Positions 3,589 through 42,712 of a stretch of 56,534 nt of DNA are shown here, piece after piece (position 1 is the first letter of the stretch; every line of letters starts with the position of its first letter). The notes beneath the pieces are model-generated. The model made no database searches and was not told the origin of the DNA. It saw only the letters and a program-made list of their open reading frames with translations. The stretch lies in NCBI GenBank assembly GCA_903925285.1, contig CAIYET010000059.1, positions 1-56,534 on the forward strand, written 5' to 3'. This DNA comes from Candidatus Hydrogenedentota bacterium. GTDB taxonomy: Bacteria; Hydrogenedentota; Hydrogenedentia; Hydrogenedentales; SLHB01. Both the position numbers and the translations under genes were made by a program.

Positions 3589-4107
3589 CTATGGTTTTCC
3601 CTTGCCGTTGAGATAGGGTTCCGGATTGACGGGTTGCCCTTTCACGTGCACCTCGTAATGCAGATGCGGTCCCGACGCATTTCCCGACTTTCCGACGCAC
3701 CCGATACGCTCGCCTTGCCGGACGCGGTCGCGCTCGCCGACGCGGAACGAGTTCAAGTGCGCGTACCACGTCTCGATGCCGTTTGCATGGCACAGTTTGA
3801 CGATGTGGCCGAAATCCCGGCTCTTCCCGGCGAATAGCACGGTACCGTCCGCCGCCGCCAAGACCGGCGTACCCTTGGGCACGTTCAAATCCACGCCCTT
3901 ATGTGGGCGTCCGTTGCGCATTCCGAATTGTGAGGAGATCCTGTATGTCGCGACATCCAAAGGAACGATGGAAGGGACGTTGTGCGGACGCACGACTTCC
4001 TCGCGCGGATGCACGCGTTCTTCGCGCCGTCGCGTCGCGCAACCCGCTTCGACCAATACCAACGTACAGCAACACAGCGCGATGCCCAATCGAATCAATG
4101 GTCTCAT
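3589..4107 (-). CDS. M23-family peptidase (LytM domain), probable lipoprotein
   Basis: A 172-residue protein with a hydrophobic N-terminus ending in VEAGC around residue 23 (an imperfect lipobox, since the -3 position is Glu), a short linker, and a C-terminal M23/LytM domain: SQFGMRNGRPHKGVDL (first His and Asp ligands) and the closing HLHYEVH motif. Members cleave peptidoglycan cross-bridges or act as regulators in the periplasm. The ligands expected for an active zinc site (H of HKGVD, D, H of HLHYE) are present. The start at 4107 is fixed by a GGGAGGAG ribosome site 7 nt upstream; the open frame continues to 4839 but that part opposes the next gene and looks non-coding. Confidence 0.85.
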   Translation of the reverse strand: MRPLIRLGIALCCCTLVLVEAGCATRRREERVHPREEVVRPHNVPSIVPLDVATYRISSQFGMRNGRPHKGVDLNVPKGTPVLAAADGTVLFAGKSRDFGHIVKLCHANGIETWYAHLNSFRVGERDRVRQGERIGCVGKSGNASGPHLHYEVHVKGQPVNPEPYLNGKGKP

Positions 4108-6048: not shown

Positions 6049-7224
6049 CTACTTTCCCCAGCCGTTTTTCAGGGCGCGCTCGGCATTTCCGCACGTGAAC
6101 TTCGCGACTTGGTCTTCCGAATACTTGCGCAGCATGGCCTCGCGCAAAGGGCGGTAGTCGCGGGGCGATTTCATGTCCTTCGCAACGTCCGTCGTGCCGT
6201 CGAAGTCCGACCCGATGGCCACGACGTCGTCGCCGCCATGCCGGACAAGGTGGTCGATGCCATTGAGCACATATTCGATGCCGAGCGTCTTGGGCTGGCT
6301 GGCTTCGCGGTGGGTGAACATCATCATACCTATCACGCCGCCGGTGTCGGCAATCTGCTTGATTTCCTCGGATGTGGGACCGAACTCGGAAGAATCGTCG
6401 CCCGTTACGCATGCGTGCGACATGACCAGCGGTCGTTTCTTCGGATTGTTGCGCACGATATCGAGCACTTGTTTTCGGAACTCAAGAGTCCCATGCGTGG
6501 CGTCGACGAGAATGCCGACATCGAGCAGTTTCTCGATCAACTCGCGGCCCCACGGCGTTAGGCCGGACGTGTCTTGATACTTGGCATTGAAACAGCCGCA
6601 CTTGGCGGGCATCCGATACTTCGAGAAGACGTTGACGCAGCCGCCCGCCTCGTTCGGATACAAGTGCGGGACGATCATGTGGCACACGCCGCGCGCGGCC
6701 AACTCGTCCACCATGTCGATATTGCCGTTGAGATGGTGCGCGCCCTCGATGGCGTGCAGCATGCAAATCTTCCCCGCGCCGGTGATACGCTGCATGTCGT
6801 CGAAGGCTCGCGCGACTTCAATGACATCCCCGCGCAACCGCCGCGTCTCCACAACCATCTTGTCCGCGAAATCGAGATATTCGCGCGTCAGTTCGTCCAT
6901 CGGCGCCGAGGCGATATGTTTTGCGCGCGGATAGAGCGCGGTCACGATTTTCAGGGGCCACACGTCTACGAACATCTCGCGTTCGAGCACGTACGTCGAA
7001 CACAGAAACGCTTTCACGCCCCCCGCTTCGAGCGCGTCGAAGTCCACATGCATCGACCACGGACACCACCACACCGGCGGATGATGGGCCTTCCAAAACC
7101 GCGTCCCGAACATGTACGACATCAGCGTGGGATGCGAATGGAGATCGACGATGCCGAATCGCTTGTCCGTCACGGCGCTAGCGACCGTTTCCCCGGTACC
7201 TGCCGTCATTCGAACATTGCTCAT
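6049..7224 (-). CDS. Membrane dipeptidase (peptidase M19 family)
   Basis: A 391-residue amidohydrolase-fold protein. Expected M19 landmarks occur in order: VDLHSHPT (metal ligands, about 27-33), HAIEGAHHL (bridging Glu), the His blocks MIVPHLYPNEAGG and MSHACVTGDD, and GSDFDGTTD near residue 330. M19 enzymes hydrolyse dipeptides, often with a D-residue at the C-terminal side. No signal peptide is visible, so it is probably cytoplasmic. ATG 7224 is preceded by GAGGATGA. It lies downstream of a broken PLP gene and two genes acting on N-acyl/D-amino compounds, which suggests a shared catabolic theme (inference). Confidence 0.88.
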   Translation of the reverse strand: MSNVRMTAGTGETVASAVTDKRFGIVDLHSHPTLMSYMFGTRFWKAHHPPVWWCPWSMHVDFDALEAGGVKAFLCSTYVLEREMFVDVWPLKIVTALYPRAKHIASAPMDELTREYLDFADKMVVETRRLRGDVIEVARAFDDMQRITGAGKICMLHAIEGAHHLNGNIDMVDELAARGVCHMIVPHLYPNEAGGCVNVFSKYRMPAKCGCFNAKYQDTSGLTPWGRELIEKLLDVGILVDATHGTLEFRKQVLDIVRNNPKKRPLVMSHACVTGDDSSEFGPTSEEIKQIADTGGVIGMMMFTHREASQPKTLGIEYVLNGIDHLVRHGGDDVVAIGSDFDGTTDVAKDMKSPRDYRPLREAMLRKYSEDQVAKFTCGNAERALKNGWGK

Positions 7225-7350: not shown

Positions 7351-7378
7351 CGCTACAGAAAACACATGCCTTCGCCTC
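7351..7378. repeat. 28-bp direct repeat, left copy (flank of AbiE insert)
   Basis: These 28 bases are identical to 9130-9157 and encode, on the minus strand, the terminal residues GEGMCFL and stop of the PLP gene. Similarity continues on the outer side (CGCTGT just before each copy, with one extra C in the right copy). Together the copies bracket about 1.75 kb holding abiEi, abiEii and the detached C-terminal piece of the PLP gene. Confidence 0.85.
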
Positions 7379-7490
7379 TGTACGTCGGGGCTTCGCCACC
7401 GATCTTGCCTTGCGAGACGAAGTAGAGCGTGTTGAATCGTTCACAAAGTTCGCCAGCCTTGCCGTGGCGCAAGATGCCGGAATCTTCGAT
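7353..7490 (-). pseudogene. Detached C-terminal piece of a PLP alanine-racemase/D-threonine-aldolase-like gene
   Basis: On the minus strand this stretch reads, without a start codon, about 45 codons including RHGKAGELCERFNTL, VSQGK and EAPTYRGEGMCFL before TAG. This matches the usual end of fold-III PLP enzymes of the D-threonine aldolase/amino-acid-deaminase type. The N-terminal piece of the same type of gene is at 9132-9452, 1.6 kb away. The frame opens straight into the 3' end of abiEii, so it is a remnant. Around 240 residues of the middle of the enzyme are absent from both pieces. Confidence 0.75.
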
Positions 7491-7492
7491 CC

Positions 7493-8401
7493 TTAACCCC
7501 ATGGTCCGGGCGCGGCCCAGCCTCTTTGAGTTGGAGCGCGAGAGAACATGCTTGAGACAATCGGTGCGAGAAATGCGTTCACCGCGCTCACCACATCGGC
7601 GAACGACGCCGGAACGCGTGTCTGCTGGAGCCGTTTCCGAAACGCTGTCCAGTGAATCCGTTTTGCGGCGGCGAAGTCAGCCGTGAATGCCACGATCTCC
7701 GGGGGCAATTGCGTACCGCGCCGTTCAAGAGTCAATCGAATGGCCTCCCGCAACCGGGCTTCCTCGAAATCGAATTGTTGAGAGAGCAACCATATGTCAT
7801 AGAAGTCCTTCATTCGACTGTTCAGTTCACCGTATTTCAGCATGGCGTCGAATTTCTCGGCAATGGCGCTCTCCCTGCTGTAGCACAACAGAATTGCCGC
7901 CGGGAAGTCGAGCATGGCTGGCAACTCAAGCTCTTGCGGTTCCGGGAAAACTGAGTCGCCGAACCCGATGTCTATTTGCATATCGATCCGGGCCGAATCC
8001 AATGTGCCCTGGAAGCGAACTCGAATTCCTTCGTAATCCGCGTCTTCCGCGATCCGCCCGGTCTGAATGGAATTTCTCTCAAAGACAAGGCCGTCTGGCT
8101 CGACCTCTACGGAAAGAACCCCTTGGATCTGGGCAAGAATGCGGGCTTCTTCGTTGCTCGTCATGCCCAGTAGGTCGATGTCCATGGTCGGTCGAAATTC
8201 CGGCGAGTGCCAGACTCTCAGCATTAGTGCCCCCTTGAGGATGAATCGACGGGCATACGCGGACTTGGACAGCCGGAAAAGAAATCGCTCCATGGCGTAA
8301 TATTGCATGAGTTCGTTGAACGGCCTCTTGTCGTTCTTGGCTCGGTTGAGAAGCCGCTGACGGACGGACGCGGGTACGTTCTTCGGGGGCTTGAGTTTCA
8401 T
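7493..8401 (-). CDS. abiEii: AbiEii-type nucleotidyltransferase toxin
   Basis: A 302-residue DUF1814/AbiEii protein. The diagnostic nucleotidyltransferase core is present: FILKGALMLRVW (about 53-64) and RPTMDIDLLG (about 70-79) with the two catalytic aspartates, then VRFQGTLDSARIDMQIDIGFGD and SRESAIAEKFDAML. Characterised AbiEii toxins add nucleotides to RNA/tRNA acceptor ends and stop growth during phage infection. The start overlaps the stop of abiEi by 4 nt, the usual antitoxin-toxin order. The last residues run into the junction with the broken PLP gene, so the C-terminal tail may not be native. Confidence 0.9.
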   Translation of the reverse strand: MKLKPPKNVPASVRQRLLNRAKNDKRPFNELMQYYAMERFLFRLSKSAYARRFILKGALMLRVWHSPEFRPTMDIDLLGMTSNEEARILAQIQGVLSVEVEPDGLVFERNSIQTGRIAEDADYEGIRVRFQGTLDSARIDMQIDIGFGDSVFPEPQELELPAMLDFPAAILLCYSRESAIAEKFDAMLKYGELNSRMKDFYDIWLLSQQFDFEEARLREAIRLTLERRGTQLPPEIVAFTADFAAAKRIHWTAFRKRLQQTRVPASFADVVSAVNAFLAPIVSSMFSRAPTQRGWAAPGPWG

Positions 8402-8991
8402 ATTGTCGCCTCGAGGTACGGCCGCATTACATTGTCAACCCGGCAGATCTTGGCATACTTGAGTAGCTCGCTCACATTGAATTTCTTCCGTTCTCTGTAG
8501 AATTTCAGTGCCTCGAGCACGACATCCATCCCAATTTTGTTGCGGAACTTGAAGCAGTCGGCCAGGGTTTTCTCGGGACTGTAAAAGCGAACGGCAACCC
8601 CGTCGATGCGATGCTCTTCGATGCCGGACGCGTAAGCCGCATCCGAGAACTTGTAGGCATGAAGAGGGGGGAAATCGAGTTGGGGTGTTCGTGAGTGTCT
8701 AGGGACTGCCACCGCGACTTCGTGCGGAATCTGCGTCGTCATTCCATGGTAAGCCAGCGCGGACACGAGGCAAATGACGGCGTTGGGAAAGCGCACAGTC
8801 GTCGTGACGAGATCCGGGTTGGCGATCGGGGGCAGTTCTGCCAGCCGGTAGACGCCTCTTGTCATCTGTTCGATGATTCCCTTGTCTCTGAGCGAATAGA
8901 GCATGTAGCGCGTGATACCGAGGCTGATGGCCTCGCTCATCCGAAGTCGGCCGCCGTGCTCGCGGAAAATCTGTTCAGACTTTTCTTTCAT
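8398..8991 (-). CDS. abiEi: AbiEi-type antitoxin (winged-helix)
   Basis: A 197-residue protein with an N-terminal winged-helix part (EHGGRLRMSEAISLGITRYMLYSL then RGVYRLAE) and the AbiEi C-terminal domain (VSALAYHG, FYSPEKTLADCFKFRNKIG, ALKFYRE). AbiEi proteins block the toxin and autorepress through inverted repeats at the promoter. The open frame continues to 9162, but that extension crosses the 28-bp flank repeat; ATG 8991 matches family length. Overlap with abiEii implies translational coupling. A candidate promoter lies at 9038-9066. Confidence 0.9.
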   Translation of the reverse strand: MKEKSEQIFREHGGRLRMSEAISLGITRYMLYSLRDKGIIEQMTRGVYRLAELPPIANPDLVTTTVRFPNAVICLVSALAYHGMTTQIPHEVAVAVPRHSRTPQLDFPPLHAYKFSDAAYASGIEEHRIDGVAVRFYSPEKTLADCFKFRNKIGMDVVLEALKFYRERKKFNVSELLKYAKICRVDNVMRPYLEATI

Positions 8992-9037
8992 GTTCAGGCT
9001 CAAGACAAAAGGTCGGTATTCGCAAACAAGTGACAAC

Positions 9038-9066
9038 AGTATGTCTGAGTCTTGGGGCAAAATCAA
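9038..9066 (-). promoter_or_regulatory. Candidate sigma-70 promoter for abiEi-abiEii
   Basis: On the minus strand TTGATT (9061-9066) and CATACT (9038-9043) are separated by 17 nt, each matching the consensus at four of six positions. It lies about 45 nt upstream of the abiEi start, between that start and the right flank repeat, so the module carries its own promoter. Confidence 0.45.
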
Positions 9067-9129
9067 GGGGGTGAAATCATGCAACTGGCGGGGCCATAGA
9101 AAGGTCAATCGTTTATTCCGCGCGCTGTC

Positions 9130-9157
9130 CGCTACAGAAAACACATGCCTTCGCCTC
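9130..9157. repeat. 28-bp direct repeat, right copy (flank of AbiE insert)
   Basis: Identical to 7351-7378. Here it closes the truncated N-terminal fragment of the PLP gene by supplying GEGMCFL and a stop codon about 93 codons after the start. Confidence 0.85.
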
Positions 9158-9452
9158 GCCACGCCGGGTAGGCAACGAGTAGGTCGTCGAAACCGTTCCG
9201 GGCCAGGAACACGGCCTCGCGGACGCTGTAGGCCATGATCGAACGAAACAGGGGCGAAGCGGCTTGAATGCGCCGGAGCAGCGATAGGCAGCGAATGGAC
9301 TTCGAGGCGATGCGGATCGGTTTGCCCCGCGCGCGTTCGAGGACCGCGCGAACGTTCTCGTCGAAAAGGTCGAGGTCGACGAACGCGAAGGGCATCGGCG
9401 TGTCGCGGAATATACGTTTGTAGTACTGATAACGATCCTCGCGTTCGTTCAT
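9132..9452 (-). pseudogene. N-terminal fragment of a PLP alanine-racemase/D-threonine-aldolase-like gene
   Basis: 106 codons. The beginning is a normal N-terminal domain of fold-III PLP enzymes of the D-threonine aldolase/amino-acid-deaminase type: FAFVDLDLFDENV, the PLP-lysine motif RIASKSIRC, and FDDLLVAYPAW. Directly after this it jumps to RGEGMCFL and stops. That is the very end of such enzymes, whose usual length is about 350-420 residues, so the catalytic middle is lost. Its start lies 4 nt after the stop of the ceramidase-like gene, showing the original operon position. Non-functional as it stands. Confidence 0.8.
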
Positions 9453-9456
9453 GAGG

Positions 9457-11070
9457 TTACTTCGCTTCCTTCAGCGCCTCGTGCAGCCGCCACAGCAACC
9501 TCGCGCTCTCACGATAGACGAGCGGGGCAATCTCCGGGCCGCACGAGTTCTCCTCTCCGTATTGTCCGTTGGGTTCATACGCGCGCGGGGTCTTTTCATC
9601 CCATTGGCTCTTGGGAATGATATAGCCGATTTCGTCGTTGGCAAGGCCGATAATCATCCGCATCTTGCCTTCCATGATTTCCTTGCGCAATGGCGGCACT
9701 TCCACCGGCACGCACGGATAGAAATCCGCGCCCGGAGGATTCGCGATGCCGCCGTCGCCGATCTCCGGATACAGTTCGCCGGGGATCGTCGCCATTTCCA
9801 CATCGCCGATGCGCACAACGTCCACTTCCGAGCGCGCGTTGCAGGGCCAGAACACGCCCGGATGGATTAAGCCAAGGACAATCGCCACTCGGAAAACGCC
9901 CCGCGTAGACCCGTAGACGGTTTTGGCGCCGACCGCGACGCGGGGCTTCTCGTTCTTCCAGACAGTCGAGCCGCGCAAGGCGTTCACCGTCTTGACGGCA
10001 AGATTCTGACCGAGCGCCTCGGCCTTCTCGAACGAGTCTTGCTTGAACTTGCGCACGCCGTCGCGATGCGGAACATCGAGGCCGAGCGGCGTCATCAGAC
10101 CGCCTACCATGCCTTGAAAATACAGACACATCCCGCCAAGCCCCTTCACGCCGTTGGGTTCGGGCACGCCCTTCTCGACGCCGTCGCGCCAGTATCCGCA
10201 AAAATCGGACGTGATAAAGGGATTGCGCCCGCCGAGCGTTTCGGGATGGTTGCCCCAGTTGACCATGGTGGCGATCGTCACGTCCGTTCCCGGCTTCACG
10301 AATCGGATGCAGTTGAGCTTGGTATCGATAACGATCGGTTTTCGCGTGTCGTTCACGAAACCTTCAGGGTTCAACTCGTACGTGGTACAGTACATCTCGA
10401 CGGGCTCGAGATGTCCGAGGGCTTCTTCCACGGCCTCTTTGCAGGCATCGAGCACGCGTTCCATGTGCGGCGTGTCGAAGTTCCAAGGCGTCGGGATTGG
10501 CCCGCTGTATATGCCCATCGTGTCGGGCGTCTCATGGTTGTGCACACACGACACGATGACGTGGTCAACCCCAAGGCGCGGATCGATCCGCTTGCGAATG
10601 TCGATAACCTTGTCGTGAAACAGGCCGATGGCATCGAGCGTGGCCATGGCAACGGTCACGCCATTGTTGCGAAACGCGATGGCGCGCACGTCGATGGGGT
10701 CGTGGACGCCCTTGGCGGGCCGGTCGGTGTTGAACCCCGTCAGCCACACCGCGTCGAACTTCCCATTGTGGTTGCGGTCGACGTACGAATCCGGCCCGGC
10801 CAGCGACTTGAAGTGGCTCAAGAGGCCCGTCTTCGGCTTGTACGTATTGTCGTTGTCGGCATCGACGAACGTATCGTAATCTTCCATATGCGGCGTAATA
10901 TCGCGCTGCGCCACACCGACCTCGAGCATCTGCGGCTCGCCGCTGCCCGTCGTCACGAAATCGAGGTAATAGAACCTGTACGGCCCCTTCATCCGGTAAC
11001 CCAAGAAGACCAGCAACGCGAGAATTAGAAAGCCAAACACCACGACGGTCTTACGGCGTCGCAAGAGCAT
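9457..11070 (-). CDS. Neutral/alkaline ceramidase-like hydrolase, membrane-anchored
   Basis: A 537-residue protein with an N-terminal anchor (RRRKTVVVFGFLILALLVF) and then VGVAQRDITP, the usual opening of neutral/alkaline non-lysosomal ceramidase-like domains, with supporting blocks VSCVHNHETPDTMG, NWGNHPETLGG and IPGELYPEIG that look like the zinc-site histidines and acid of the family. True ceramidases cleave N-acyl-sphingosine; many bacterial relatives have other amide substrates. The start at 11070 has AGGGAG 9 nt upstream; ATG 11079 has the same motif touching it and is less likely. It is followed at 4 nt by the broken PLP gene. Confidence 0.75.
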   Translation of the reverse strand: MLLRRRKTVVVFGFLILALLVFLGYRMKGPYRFYYLDFVTTGSGEPQMLEVGVAQRDITPHMEDYDTFVDADNDNTYKPKTGLLSHFKSLAGPDSYVDRNHNGKFDAVWLTGFNTDRPAKGVHDPIDVRAIAFRNNGVTVAMATLDAIGLFHDKVIDIRKRIDPRLGVDHVIVSCVHNHETPDTMGIYSGPIPTPWNFDTPHMERVLDACKEAVEEALGHLEPVEMYCTTYELNPEGFVNDTRKPIVIDTKLNCIRFVKPGTDVTIATMVNWGNHPETLGGRNPFITSDFCGYWRDGVEKGVPEPNGVKGLGGMCLYFQGMVGGLMTPLGLDVPHRDGVRKFKQDSFEKAEALGQNLAVKTVNALRGSTVWKNEKPRVAVGAKTVYGSTRGVFRVAIVLGLIHPGVFWPCNARSEVDVVRIGDVEMATIPGELYPEIGDGGIANPPGADFYPCVPVEVPPLRKEIMEGKMRMIIGLANDEIGYIIPKSQWDEKTPRAYEPNGQYGEENSCGPEIAPLVYRESARLLWRLHEALKEAK

Positions 11071-11307
11071 CCTCGACATCTCCCTGCCGACTTCGCGGCG
11101 GCCATGCGTACCTTGTACGCCCTTGGACAGGCGGTACAACATCATATTCAGGAAGACCCGCATTCTATCATGTAGCCCCGCGCAAAGGAAGGCGATTGGA
11201 GTTGTCGCAAGAAGCTTGACGCGGCGCGGCGATTATAGTAAGGTGATCGATGCTGCGGTGTTGGACATGGTAACAGCCGTTTGGGCGGCATGAAGGATGG
11301 GTGTGGT

Positions 11308-15833: not shown

Positions 15834-17162
15834 ATGTTCGGATGCACATACGGAACGCTGTTTCAGACCTCGGTCGCGGGCGGCAGCTATCAGGAAGGGC
15901 TGACTGTTCATTTACAGGGCGTGCCGCCGGGACTGTCCATCACCGAGGCGGAGATCTACGAGGCGCTCCTGACGCGCAAGCCCGGCCAGAGCGAACTGGC
16001 CTCGCCGCGTCGCGAACCGGATGTGCCCGTCATCTACAGCGGCGTGAACGCAGCGGATACGATGCCGGGTTTCAAGAACAAGGGCTGTACCAACGGTACG
16101 CCGATGGTTATCCTGATCCCGAACCTCGACCGGCATTTCGAGCATATCGAGCAGTATCAATCGACCAATCGCACGCCGAGACCGGGCCATGCGTCGTACG
16201 CCTCTTATGTCAAGTACGGCGAATGGGACGACGCCATCGGCGCGGGATTCTTTAGCGGGCGCTACACGTCGACGATTGTCGCTGCGGGCGCGGTGGCGCG
16301 GCGCATTCTCAAACAGCATGGCATCGAGGTCTTCGCGTATGTGAAAGAAGCTGCGGGCGTGCGGGCCAGCGACATATCGCACGACGCGGCGCGCGCGAAG
16401 GTGGACGCGTTTCGCGCGGTGCGCAAGGCGTACGATCCGATCTACGATTGGGTGTTCGCGTCCGGCCGGATTACGCCGGACATGCGGTTTCTGCAAAAGA
16501 TGGCCGTGTTGGCGGAACTCGAACGCGACCTGATCGCGATCCAAGACGCGGCAAAACCGATCGACGCTCAAGCGATTCGTAACGAGTACGGCATTCACCC
16601 AACCATGAATTGTCCCGACGTCGACGCGGCGTTCGAGATGGAAAAACGGATCCTCGCGATTCGCGATGAAGGCGATTCGAGCGGCGGACTCGTCGAAGTC
16701 GTGGCAACCGGCGTGCCCGGCGGCATGGGCGAACCGGTCTTCCGCAAACTCGATGGCGAACTCGGACGCATGATGAGCATCGGGACCATCAAGGCCGTCG
16801 AAATCGGCGCGGGATACGCCGTGAAAGACATGCGCGGCTCGGAGTGCAACGACGCGATCCGCGCCAAGGACGGCAACGTCTACTTCGAGTCGAACAACGC
16901 CGGCGGTATTACGGGCGGCCTGACCACGGGCCAGCCGATCATAGCGAGGCTGGCCGTCAAACCGACGCCGACCATCGCCAAGGATCAGAAGACCATCGAC
17001 AAAGTCTCGCGAGAAAATACCGTTCTAAGTGCGGTCACGCGGCGCGACCCGACCATCGTCGCACGCGTGTGGCCCGTGGCCGAAGCGTTCACCGCGCTTA
17101 TTCTCCTCGACCATTATATGCAGCACCTAGCCTATCGCGCCCTCTGGACCAAGCAGGCCTGA
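15834..17162 (+). CDS. aroC: Chorismate synthase, divergent
   Basis: A 442-residue protein, longer than the usual 350-390. The second and third family signatures are intact: GFFSGRYTSTIVAAGA and RRDPTIVARVWPVAEA, as is RPRPGHAS with the second catalytic His. The first signature is altered: where the family has GESHG, this protein has GGSYQ (residues 16-20), so the first catalytic histidine is Tyr19. Chorismate synthase converts EPSP to chorismate with reduced FMN. The neighbouring EPSP synthase also has substituted active-site residues, so the two may belong to a coherent divergent lineage. ATG 15834 has AGGAGAG 7 nt upstream. Confidence 0.8.
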   Translation: MFGCTYGTLFQTSVAGGSYQEGLTVHLQGVPPGLSITEAEIYEALLTRKPGQSELASPRREPDVPVIYSGVNAADTMPGFKNKGCTNGTPMVILIPNLDRHFEHIEQYQSTNRTPRPGHASYASYVKYGEWDDAIGAGFFSGRYTSTIVAAGAVARRILKQHGIEVFAYVKEAAGVRASDISHDAARAKVDAFRAVRKAYDPIYDWVFASGRITPDMRFLQKMAVLAELERDLIAIQDAAKPIDAQAIRNEYGIHPTMNCPDVDAAFEMEKRILAIRDEGDSSGGLVEVVATGVPGGMGEPVFRKLDGELGRMMSIGTIKAVEIGAGYAVKDMRGSECNDAIRAKDGNVYFESNNAGGITGGLTTGQPIIARLAVKPTPTIAKDQKTIDKVSRENTVLSAVTRRDPTIVARVWPVAEAFTALILLDHYMQHLAYRALWTKQA

Positions 17163-17260
17163 GAGCAAACAGGTACGTGAAAAGAAAGAAATTCCGGCTC
17201 TTCCGGATTTCGCGTACTTCTTTTTCACTTTCACGGAAAAGTATCGTTTCGATTTGGTTT

Positions 17261-17470
17261 CCCCGAAGGTGAGGAACATGAATAGCCGTGGGTGACAACC
17301 CACGGATACAAAACCGACATCCATCGACCCTGGAAGGGTCGCACTATGTCCATATCATCGTTAATAAAAGTCGACATCGTACTCCTTGTGCGACCCTTCC
17401 AGGGTCGGTGGTTAAGTATTTGTGCCCGTGGGTTGTCACCCACGGCTATTCATGTTTCTCCCCTTCGGGG
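17261..17470. repeat. 210-bp long inverted repeat (MITE-like)
   Basis: Outer arms 17261-17305 and 17426-17470 are near-perfect inverted copies (about 45 bp) starting with CCCCGAAGG and containing GTGGGTGACAACCCAC. An inner pair, 17325-17344 and 17388-17407, repeats GACCCTGGAAGGGTCG-type words in opposite orientation. The 43-nt centre has no ORF. It fills part of a 550-bp gap between aroC and the peroxiredoxin gene. The structure suggests a small non-autonomous mobile element or a nested palindrome family; no transposase is nearby. Confidence 0.8.
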
Positions 17471-17474
17471 AAAG

Positions 17475-17520
17475 TCAGTTGAGGCGACAACTTCGGGAAA
17501 ATTCAGTTGAGGCGACAACT
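17475..17520. repeat. Two direct copies of an 18-bp word
   Basis: TCAGTTGAGGCGACAACT occurs at 17475-17492 and 17503-17520, a 28-nt period, directly after the long inverted repeat. Two copies are too few for a CRISPR and there are no cas genes. The remaining part of the gap up to 17709 shows no gene. Confidence 0.6.
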
Positions 17521-24790: not shown

Positions 24791-24897
24791 GTCAGAAGTC
24801 AGAAGTCAGAAGTCAGAAGTCAGAAGTCAGAATTCAGAATTCAGAATGGCACTGCCGCCGAGATATCCGTTGAACATTCTGACTACTGACTTCTGAC
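24791..24897. repeat. Heptamer array with facing arms (GTCAGAA)
   Basis: Eight contiguous 7-nt units (six GTCAGAA, two TTCAGAA) at 24791-24846 face three inverse units (TTCTGAC, TACTGAC, TTCTGAC) at 24877-24897 across a 30-nt loop. The transcript would form a long imperfect hairpin. It lies between convergent queA and the Hpt gene, ending 6 nt before the Hpt stop codon. Confidence 0.85.
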
Positions 24898-32977: not shown

Positions 32978-34225
32978 GTTATCGAGCATTTGTTCGAGAG
33001 TCTGGCGTTTGCGGATGAGCGTGAAAAGACCATCGTTGCGCAGTAGTACTTCCGGGGCTTCTGGGAAGGAATTGTAGTTCTTGGAAGACATGGCGGCGGC
33101 ATAGGCTCCTGCGCCGCCGACGACCAATGCGTCGCCGATTTGCGCTTCGGGGAGCGTACGCGTCTGGAGTCCTTCGGGATTGCCTGCTTCGGGCGTGAGG
33201 ACATCGCCGCTCTCGCAGCAGTGGCCTGCAACAAGATATTCGCACGTCGCACGTCGCATGTCGCACGTCGCACGTCGCACAACGTCGATCGGATGTTGCG
33301 CGCCGTACATGCTGGGCCGGACGAGTTCGGTCATGCCGCTGTCGACCTTGATGAAAGAGAACCCTTGCGTGCCGGTATCGACGATGTCGATGACCGTACA
33401 AACAAGCGCGCCAGCGTTGGCGACGAGAAAAGTGCCGGGTTCGATTTCAAGTTTGAGCGCGCGGCCATGCCGTGTCTTGAACGCCTGGAAATCCTCGACG
33501 ACGCGCCGTCCGATGGCTTGCAAGTCTGCCGAAGTCTCGTAATCCATACGCGCGACCTTGAACCCGCCGCCGAGGCTCAGCGTGCGAACCTCCGGCAAGC
33601 GCGCCGCGATGTCGAGCGACAATCCTGCGCAATGGTTCCACATCTCCGGGTCCGTGCCCGAACCGATGTGCGTGTGCATGCGCGTGATGCGGAGACCGTA
33701 CTCGCGCTGGATCGCCAAGGCGTCGCCGATGTGTTCGTGCCAGATACCGAAGCTCGAGGACGGTCCGCCGACATTGGTCCGGTTGCTGTGACCGGAACCA
33801 AGGCCCGGATTGATGCGCACCGATACTTCCGAGCCGGGCCGGAGCCTGCCATAGGTCCGCAGTTGATGCAGCGAGCATGCGTTGAATCGCACGCCGTAGT
33901 CGAGCAACTCAGCCAAGTCGCACGGCATTTCCTGCGCGGTGATCTGGATTTTGTCCGGCGTCATGCCCGCGCGCATCGCACGCCGTGCTTCGAATCCACT
34001 GCTCGCGTCGATATGCAGACCGAGGCCGGCAAACAGCCCGATCACGGCGCGGTTCGGCAGGGCCTTCATCGCATACCGGACCGTCAGGCCAAACGCATTC
34101 GGCAAGGCCAACGCTTGGCGCGCCTGCGATTCCAGCGTCCGTTGGTCATATACAAACACCGGCGTCCCAAACGTCTGCTGGACATCGAGCACTTGTTCTT
34201 CAGTTAAGAAACTACACATCGCCAT
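32966..34225 (-). CDS. lysA: Diaminopimelate decarboxylase
   Basis: A 419-residue fold-III PLP decarboxylase. PLP lysine in RYAMKALPN (Lys54), HIDASSGFE, HTHIGSGTDP (184-193), the phosphate-binding SLGGGFK (217-223), and CCESGDVL (336-343) for the specificity loop. It converts meso-diaminopimelate to L-lysine. An insertion of about 14 residues (317-330, two copies of RRATC) interrupts the loop before CESGD and is encoded by a DNA heptamer array. The start ATG GCG ATG at 34225 follows the TPR gene by 22 nt, so it probably belongs to the exbBD operon. Confidence 0.9.
   Translation of the reverse strand: MAMCSFLTEEQVLDVQQTFGTPVFVYDQRTLESQARQALALPNAFGLTVRYAMKALPNRAVIGLFAGLGLHIDASSGFEARRAMRAGMTPDKIQITAQEMPCDLAELLDYGVRFNACSLHQLRTYGRLRPGSEVSVRINPGLGSGHSNRTNVGGPSSSFGIWHEHIGDALAIQREYGLRITRMHTHIGSGTDPEMWNHCAGLSLDIAARLPEVRTLSLGGGFKVARMDYETSADLQAIGRRVVEDFQAFKTRHGRALKLEIEPGTFLVANAGALVCTVIDIVDTGTQGFSFIKVDSGMTELVRPSMYGAQHPIDVVRRATCDMRRATCEYLVAGHCCESGDVLTPEAGNPEGLQTRTLPEAQIGDALVVGGAGAYAAAMSSKNYNSFPEAPEVLLRNDGLFTLIRKRQTLEQMLDNEVD
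33241..33280. repeat. Intragenic heptamer array (CGCACGT) in lysA
   Basis: Five full 7-nt units CGCACGT (one as CGCATGT) plus CGCAC. Because 21 nt is three units, it translates as a 7-residue periodic peptide (RRATCDM, RRATCEY). It is in frame and predicted to be a surface loop just before the CESGD motif. Confidence 0.85.
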
Positions 34226-37863: not shown

Positions 37864-37937
37864 GGCTTTAGGCTTTAGGCTGTAGGCTGTAGGAAAGAAG
37901 CCTGAAGCCTACAGCCTACAGCCTAAAGCCTAAAGCC
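37864..37937. repeat. Perfect heptamer hairpin array (GGCTTTA/GGCTGTA)
   Basis: Arms 37864-37893 and 37908-37937 are perfect 30-bp inverse copies made of 7-nt units (GGCTTTA twice, GGCTGTA twice), loop 14 nt. The stop codon of the glycosyltransferase (37930-37932) is inside the right arm. Confidence 0.9.
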
Positions 37938-39117
37938 TTACTTTCATGAGGCGGAGGATATGGCCGCTCTTCACTTCCACGCGGTGTTCCCAGGAATTGG
38001 CGCGCGCGATGACTTGTCGGACCTCGTGCAATTCGGGGGCGTCGTTGCGTAGCGACGCTTCGACGCGCGTAATAAAGTCGTCGTGGGATTCCGCTATCTC
38101 GACCACGTCCTCGTAAACCCTTACGGAAGGCAACGCCTCGCTCACGACCGGCTTGCCGGTTGCAAAATACTCCTGCAACTTGAGCGGGTAGATGTTGCGC
38201 GTCGCGTCGTTGACCATGTAGGGGACAAAGAGCACGTCGAAAGCTTTCAAATAGGACGGGAGTTCGGCAATGGGCCGATTGCCAAGCAGGTGCAGGTTTG
38301 GAATCCCGCGCATGGGACTCAGGTCCATGTCGGCGCGTGCCGGTCCGACCAGGACGATCGACCAATCCGGCCTCTTCTTGGCGAGGTGGACGACGAGTTG
38401 GACGTCGAACCGCGCTGGGTCGATCACGCCGACCGTTCCGACAATCGGATGTGGCAGATGGAGGACGTCTTCGGGGATTGGCGTTTCGGGAAGGGTGGCC
38501 TTCGAGAAGTGCGCGTAGTCCGCAGCGTGGTAGACCACATGCGTCTCGCGGTTGTACAAGGCGCGCTGCTCCTTCATGTTCTCGGTGCCGGTGAACACGA
38601 CATCGGCCTGGCGGCACAGGCGCTCTTCAATCCAATCGAGCAACAGGATGGCGTTCGGATTTTTCTCGTAGTTGACCCATTCGTCGCCTGTATCGTATGC
38701 CGTCGCGAGGGCATTCATGCGTTCGACGGCCATGCCGTGCAACGGCGAGAAATTCCACACGATGGGCCTGCCGAATCCGAGCCGCGCCGCAACGCGTTTG
38801 ACCAGTTTCGCAAGCAGCCATCCGTTGACATCGAGCGCGCTGCGCATCAGCGAAACCGGCAAGCCGCTGAACGGGAGAAACACGTGCGGCGGATGATATA
38901 CGAAGAAGTTCTTCGATATTTCCTGAACGCGCGGACCTTCCCAGTACCCCGCGCCTTGCGGATCGCGCTTCTTCAGGAAATAGACGAACGGACGCGGGAC
39001 GTCCACGTACAACACGCGGTTGTGCGGGGCCAAACGCGTCGCAATCTGCTGCGGCAACGACCAACTCGCGCGCCAGTCCGAAAACGCAAACGCGATAATA
39101 TCGTATCCATCGAGCAC
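37930..39117 (-). CDS. Glycosyltransferase (GT-B, family 4-like)
   Basis: A 395-residue GT-B protein. C-terminal donor domain: GTVGVIDPARFDVQLVVHLA, WSIVLVGPA, LHLLGNRP, and the acidic block YPLKLQEYFATGKPVV with the usual Glu. N-terminal half: DDYDIIAFAFSDWR-like opening and TAYDTGDEWVNYE. Acceptor unknown; members build capsule, teichuronic or exopolysaccharides. GTG start 39117 has a perfect GAGGTGA 6 nt upstream. The C-terminus (KVRL) runs into a heptamer array and is probably altered. Confidence 0.85.
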   Translation of the reverse strand: MLDGYDIIAFAFSDWRASWSLPQQIATRLAPHNRVLYVDVPRPFVYFLKKRDPQGAGYWEGPRVQEISKNFFVYHPPHVFLPFSGLPVSLMRSALDVNGWLLAKLVKRVAARLGFGRPIVWNFSPLHGMAVERMNALATAYDTGDEWVNYEKNPNAILLLDWIEERLCRQADVVFTGTENMKEQRALYNRETHVVYHAADYAHFSKATLPETPIPEDVLHLPHPIVGTVGVIDPARFDVQLVVHLAKKRPDWSIVLVGPARADMDLSPMRGIPNLHLLGNRPIAELPSYLKAFDVLFVPYMVNDATRNIYPLKLQEYFATGKPVVSEALPSVRVYEDVVEIAESHDDFITRVEASLRNDAPELHEVRQVIARANSWEHRVEVKSGHILRLMKVRL

Positions 39118-41848: not shown

Positions 41849-41898
41849 CTTCAGGTTACATCGCACTTCCTGAAGCCAGAAGCCTGAAGCCTGAAGCC
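41849..41898. repeat. Heptamer array (TGAAGCC)
   Basis: An inverse unit CTTCAGG at 41849-41855 faces four units TGAAGCC, AGAAGCC, TGAAGCC, TGAAGCC at 41871-41898. The stretch CGCACTTCCTGAAGCC is shared word for word with the array at 39134-39208. Between icd and the histidine kinase gene. Confidence 0.8.
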
Positions 41899-41923
41899 TA
41901 CGAGTTACGGAAGGAAGGGCTGC

Positions 41924-42631: not shown

Positions 42632-42712
42632 AATTAGGAATTAGGAATTCTGAATGTCAACCGACCCGCGCTCTTCTCCATGTACTAATTCCTAATTCCT
42701 AATTCCTAATTA
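42632..42712. repeat. Heptamer array (AATTAGG/CTAATTC)
   Basis: Left arm AATTAGG twice plus AATTC (42632-42650) faces four units CTAATTC x3, CTAATTA at 42685-42712. The stop codon of the minus-strand membrane gene (42710-42712) is part of the last unit. It occupies the gap between convergent genes. Confidence 0.8.

Follow-up and report, generated by a model that had tools for sequence, protein, structure and literature searches.

This locus bears on how small toxin-antitoxin modules that lack mobility genes get from one chromosome to another. In the stretch of DNA analysed here (56,534 nucleotides from a Candidatus Hydrogenedentota bacterium, hereafter the window), an abiEi-abiEii operon (8991-7493, minus strand) lies between the N- and C-terminal pieces of a gene for a PLP enzyme, and the same 28-bp sequence, CGCTACAGAAAACACATGCCTTCGCCTC, is found on either side of the operon (Table 1). 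The original prediction had described an AbiE module in a broken PLP gene, bordered on both sides by an identical 28-bp stretch from the 3' end of that gene. Both statements were borne out: the two proteins matched their families, the gene pieces aligned to opposite ends of intact homologues, and the two copies of the repeat are exact.

Table 1. Features of the AbiE locus, in the order of transcription (positions in the window).
Feature	Position	Strand	Remarks
Flanking neutral/alkaline ceramidase-like gene	9457..11163	-	
PLP gene, N-terminal piece	9158..9452	-	98 codons, up to ..VAYPAW
Upstream copy (U) of the PLP gene 3' end	9130..9157	-	exact 28-bp repeat
Spacer between the U copy and the abiE promoter	9071..9129	.	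59 bp
abiE promoter/operator region	8992..9070	-	nucleotide homology with the G065 homologue (L074) reaches 9070
abiEi, antitoxin, 197 aa	8398..8991	-	PF13338 3e-11, PADLOC AbiEi 1e-77
abiEii, toxin, 302 aa, nucleotidyltransferase	7493..8401	-	PF08843 6e-50, PADLOC AbiEii 6e-99
PLP gene, C-terminal piece, ~42 codons	7353..7478	-	starts ~15 bp past the abiEii stop; runs colinearly into the D copy
Downstream copy (D) of the PLP gene 3' end	7351..7378	-	exact 28-bp repeat; native context behind the C-terminal piece
Flanking M19 membrane dipeptidase family gene	6049..7224	-	PF01244 5e-43

AbiE systems were recognised by the AbiEii motifs hG[G/S/A]x15DhD, motif III with K/R and motif IV +DxxD, together with a winged-HTH AbiEi encoded upstream in a bicistronic operon with a small overlap. 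Compared with the published motifs (PMC3985639), the translation of abiEii in the window contained KGA-x15-DID (G-x15-DxD), the K and R of motif III and KDFYD (KDxxD), and abiEi and abiEii overlap by 4 nt (8398-8401). Judged from its predicted products, the module is an AbiE type IV toxin-antitoxin system in its AbiEii motifs and in its AbiEi and operon layout. A cassette in another family of the Hydrogenedentota (G065) was 78% identical over exactly 7498-9070, promoter included, at an unrelated locus that has no PLP gene. Since the homology is confined to this interval, the insert consists of AbiE alone with its promoter. Against the same cassette, dN/dS was 0.14 for abiEi and 0.13 for abiEii; this purifying selection suggests that the module has been kept functional. 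A close search of viral contigs found no relatives of AbiEii.

The interrupted gene encodes a fold-type III PLP enzyme, with the Pfam family Ala_racemase_N above the cut-off and a sub-threshold match to 3-hydroxy-D-aspartate aldolase. Its N piece (9452-9158) corresponds to residues 7-101 in alignments with intact homologues, which are about 400 residues long (63-66% amino acid identity). It retained 21 of 22 near-invariant positions and showed no sign of decay. The C piece aligned to residues 353-399 of these homologues (66% identity), and its divergence was somewhat above expectation. DNA homology of the C piece begins at about 7475-7482, within about 15 bp of the toxin stop codon, so that the PLP homology starts near 7478 and not at 7490, where the piece had been predicted to begin. 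The predicted loss of the central part of the enzyme was seen, but it amounts to about 251-255 residues by alignment instead of about 240. The intact homologues end in ..PTYRGEGxCFL followed by the stop codon, and their 3' ends were the closest DNA matches to the 28-mer. The 28-bp repeat is the native 3' end of the PLP gene, including its stop codon. The host genome carries one intact PLP paralogue (63% identity), which lies on a different contig.

The two copies of the repeat differ in their context. The D copy is in its native place, because it is colinear with the C piece. The U copy, which contains the last 26 bp of the coding sequence including the stop codon and 2 nt beyond, is out of place and has foreign context on both sides: one side is fused in frame to codon 98, so that the ORF of the N piece runs into it (RGEGMCFL, stop), and the other side is joined to the spacer. 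When one 1-nt gap was allowed, the similarity between U and D continued for 6-7 bases past the stop codon, giving 46 columns at 89% overall, and the first ~8 nt of the spacer resembled the sequence behind the D copy; further out the similarity is weak (p ~0.04 for the extension). Matches to the 59-bp spacer were sought in the same genome and in the AbiE homologue, and none was found. The expected number of 28-mer repeats in the window by chance is 0, even with 3 mismatches allowed. No third copy with up to 3 mismatches was present in the entire 8.28-Mb assembly, and no exact copy in IMG/VR.

No integrase or transposase was found between the repeats, as had been predicted; the accompanying proposal that a mechanism acts in trans gained no support as far as a dedicated integrase is concerned. 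Insertion of an IS element or a transposon, the hallmark of which is terminal inverted repeats with a short target duplication of fixed length, does not fit: no terminal inverted repeats were detected around 7378-9130, and the duplication is asymmetric, with the C piece lying within it.

Repeats of other kinds were noticed elsewhere in the window. Five short tandem arrays with differing 7-bp units (GTCAGAA at 24791-24846, TCGCACG at 33240-33280, AAGCCTA at 37898-37938, CCTGAAG at 41869-41899 and CTAATTC at 42685-42711) make the density of heptamer repeats in those 20 kb unusual. A two-copy 28-bp tandem repeat at 17463-17520 adjoins ORFs on both strands (~17100-17450) that have the peptide-like stretch ..GCHPRLFMFL.. 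in common, which suggests a palindromic dispersed repeat.

An intact ancestral locus, proposed as a check on the original prediction, was sought in relatives and was not found: the order ceramidase-PLP-M19 was absent from 119 relatives (none of the same genus) and from 62 PLP loci of GTDB r220 genomes. Among the loci searched, a ceramidase-like gene lay near a PLP homologue only in two Hydrogenedentota MAGs (L075 and L078, in G056 and G066), where the PLP homologue is intact and the two genes are convergent and ~0.6-0.9 kb apart. The pairing of the two genes in the window is therefore conserved but re-oriented.

To see whether the pattern recurs, 386 genomes, most of them the single representative of their family, were searched for AbiE, and 54 cassettes with usable flanks were tested. 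A cassette was counted as positive when both of its sides had, within 400 bp, the same exact direct repeat of 18 bp or more, and the controls were equal-length arbitrary segments of the same loci, not other acquired modules. Since the window is the discovery case, enrichment is stated for the 53 others, seven of which (~13%, about 1 in 8; 8/54 with the window) were flanked by a repeat. Only 8 of 1598 control segments (0.5%) were so flanked, all from one locus. Fisher's exact test with the window included gave 8e-9, and a conservative locus-level test gave p = 0.016. With imperfect repeats counted, the figures were 10/54 for AbiE and 4/411 for controls. A close flanking repeat was absent from 85% of the AbiE cassettes, and 14 other Hydrogenedentota cassettes had none. 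The 12 cassettes on closed plasmids also had no close repeat, one of them having a distant, IS-associated repeat. Most of the positive cases come from draft assemblies.

The repeated sequence was the 3' end of a beta-lactamase-family gene at L165 (55 bp, 91% identity), of a DUF362 gene at L200 in genome G246 (195 bp, 93%) and of a DegT aminotransferase gene at L209 (94 bp, 83%, convergent), all three belonging to intact neighbour genes. It was the 5' end of hsdM at L223 (34 bp, 97%), a hydrolase segment at L221 (120 bp, 90%) and a tRNA-like region at L167 (154 bp, 86%). Variation between loci and the lack of a recombinase, as in insertions with long target duplication, are seen at AbiE loci: repeats of variable length (28-195 bp; 83-97% identity outside the window), duplicated genes that are all different, and no recombinase between the repeats. 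In the window, the repeats are the 3' end of the target gene and are limited to two copies. The repeats of the six loci had no sequence in common, and their period of 1.68-2.03 kb leaves room for essentially AbiE only. In the window and at L165, L200 and L229, no more than ~15 bp separate the abiEii stop codon from the start of the D copy. In all four 3'-end cases (L165, L200, L209 and the window) the similarity ends 0-9 nt past the stop codon. Random duplication in situ is disfavoured, because it would not yield such an end point.

Several of these loci deserve a description of their own. At L223 (G120:C3), AbiE lies directly upstream of an intact hsdM, the 5' end of which is duplicated upstream of AbiE in two pieces; here the toxin-antitoxin module has entered a methylase gene of a type I restriction-modification system at its start. 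At L167 (G112:C50), a repeat of ~120-150 bp occurs three times on one contig (300, 2280 and 4182) with AbiE between two of the copies, and it contains the 5' part of a tRNA-like gene broken by a GC-rich palindrome. The cassette at L222 likewise lies at tRNA-like repeats. Around AbiE at L166 (G085:C103), a dispersed repeat of 26-31 bp, GAAACGACAATCGACACCTCCGTCCCG, was found at 3755, 4767, 4801, 5976 and 8291, one copy being inverted. L166, L169 and L204, where the repeats are dispersed or of the Rhs type, were not counted as gene-end cases. The repeat at L165 was at one point taken for the end of a pseudopilin gene; Pfam shows the beta-lactamase-family gene given above.

The DUF362 case could be compared with its own family. 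Two other genera have AbiE behind the same DUF362 gene without an extra 3' end; AbiE is therefore a standing neighbour of this gene, and the duplication is a later event. The extra copy is 93% like the gene of its own genome and 80-84% like the genes of the relatives. The two copies agreed with the relatives at 13 and 12 positions, and neither is clearly foreign. These facts hint that AbiE travels beside its anchor gene, as the pattern is the trace expected from an acquisition anchored on a neighbour gene, with one homologous and one illegitimate junction.

From the repeat, the junctions, the intact AbiE and the recurrence elsewhere, all of which are observed, we infer the mechanism, the donor and the order of events in the window lineage as follows. 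AbiE would have been inserted with a long target duplication anchored in the end of the PLP gene, and the upstream copy of the gene would have lost its middle; we give this reading a probability of about 0.55. The recombination that brought in the operon would have had its anchor in the 3' end of the PLP gene and would have needed no recombinase belonging to the operon. One junction would be homologous, within the conserved gene end. The other would be illegitimate, directly behind the abiEii stop codon, and would rejoin the PLP gene ~126 bp before its stop. The outcome would be the gene, then AbiE, then a second 3' end of the gene. The upstream copy in the window would also have lost codons ~99-390, leaving the N piece and the last 28 bp. 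This loss may be a later deletion or may have come with the insertion: in homology-facilitated illegitimate recombination, an insertion of ~1 kb is typically accompanied by a deletion about as large (PMC3240628), which would account for the missing middle of the gene.

A target-duplicating insertion at the gene end combined with a deletion, one of the two mechanisms originally proposed, fits the recurrence and the junction anatomy best. It is favoured because the exact, unique repeat is the gene's own 3' end, because the D copy is colinear with the native C piece and the U copy is displaced, because the boundaries of AbiE are tight, as judged from the G065 homology at a locus without a PLP gene, and because gene-end duplications recur around AbiE in distant genomes. 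It is weakened because the missing middle calls for either one more step or a single event of some complexity, because most AbiE cassettes, and those tested from other Hydrogenedentota and from plasmids, have no such repeat, because no match was found for the spacer and neither copy in G246 is clearly foreign, and because the relatives searched had no intact locus and most positives are drafts. That the border of the repeat is also the border of the deletion was considered as an argument against target duplication and was dropped, since a deletion will, by definition, cut the repeat back to its own edge.

It is worth noting that there are other interpretations of this locus. In a single complex repair event, AbiE may have replaced the middle of the gene illegitimately, with the 28 (~35) bp at the N junction being filler copied by template switching from the 3' end, which lies 1.7 kb off. 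In favour of this are the foreign surroundings of the U copy on either side, the undecayed N piece and the position of the N junction at an overlap of 3-4 nt (CGAG/GAG) within an interrupted similarity (CCCG-CGT); one event would also cover deletion, insertion and filler. We nevertheless consider it unlikely, since it leaves unexplained the recurrence of 55-195 bp gene-end duplications around AbiE with intact neighbours, a fusion in frame to the native stop would arise by chance in 1 of 3 cases, and no Ku gene was found in the host genome, which makes bacterial NHEJ unlikely. A chimeric join at the repeat by the assembler is the least probable of all. The assembly is a metagenome-derived draft of 1133 contigs with 6.7% contamination, and crossing over the two 28-mers would resolve the locus into an internally deleted gene and a 1.78-kb circle; however, an assembler would find no overlap to misjoin at the other two junctions (N piece to 28-mer, abiEii to C piece), and the same architecture occurs in independent assemblies, some of few contigs (60 in G120, 70 in G148).

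An insert with a second copy of the gene's 3' end beyond it is also the classical layout of site-specific integration, in which the 28 bp would be attL and attR of a small non-autonomous element and the integrase would act in trans. This second mechanism of the original prediction agrees with the end of the similarity at the stop codon, seen at four loci, and with the AbiE cassettes at tRNA-like repeats (L167, L222). It gained no support in a site-specific sense and appears improbable to us: the targets and the repeats all differ, with identities of 83-97% and no common core, 5' ends (L223) and interiors (L221) are used as well, no integrase lies between the repeats, the genome has no third 28-mer, and in the window the U copy does not complete the gene that precedes it. 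Still somewhat less credible is an earlier partial tandem duplication of the PLP gene, with AbiE landing between the copies and each copy then losing a different part. The weak similarity with indels past the stop codon (p ~0.04) and the raised divergence of the C piece, but not of the N piece, would agree with this history. Against it, at least three events are required, the 28 bp are identical though the adjacent parts have diverged, and the other loci do not need it.

The similar copies of neighbouring genes around AbiE in distant bacteria suggest that AbiE modules often spread by recombination anchored on neighbouring genes and not by an integrase of their own. A broader idea, which we put forward as speculation, is that AbiE modules are recombinase-free mobile units that habitually anchor on the ends of neighbour genes and leave as their footprint a copied gene end stopping at the stop codon; the toxin may favour the retention or formation of such recombinants by post-segregational selection. 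About 13% of the AbiE loci, which belong to very different bacteria, had the module flanked by a copied neighbour-gene end, a share far higher than in controls. This footprint is a searchable signature by which defence and addiction modules that spread without a recombinase could be recognised.

The module itself is ordinary. It resembles the AbiE type IV systems of Dy et al. 2014 (PMC3985639) in its operon, its nucleotidyltransferase motifs, its conserved promoter region and its 4-nt overlap, the genes of the characterised Streptococcus agalactiae system also overlapping by four bases (PMC3985639); only its genomic setting is unusual. Like integrative elements that insert at gene 3' ends and restore the gene, it has a gene 3' end on both sides; unlike them, it has no recombinase and no common core, the gene is not restored, and the element is AbiE alone. 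Another parallel is found in E. coli, where a recircularised fragment with a gene end on it, taken up by a single crossover, produced gene-end duplications of 109-950 bp (PMC3240628). The same mechanism has been invoked for T6SS effector modules, and toxin modules spread in this way in Vibrio (PMC5361080). These cases share with the window one homologous junction in an anchor gene and one illegitimate junction. They are laboratory or within-species events, whereas the window event is deduced from sequence and concerns an uncultured host. Restriction-modification systems, as cited in PMC3874152 and PMC3031569, insert with a long and variable target duplication on the order of 100 bp (Nobusato et al. 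2000; Furuta et al. 2010). As far as these accounts go, the likeness lies in a two-gene addiction module without a recombinase and in a duplicated adjacent host sequence that varies in length and sequence. The difference is that AbiE is a type IV toxin-antitoxin pair, that four AbiE loci duplicate a gene 3' end stopping just past the stop codon, and that the gene in the window is also truncated. The footprint at AbiE loci links toxin-antitoxin systems to a mode of mobility so far described for restriction-modification systems.
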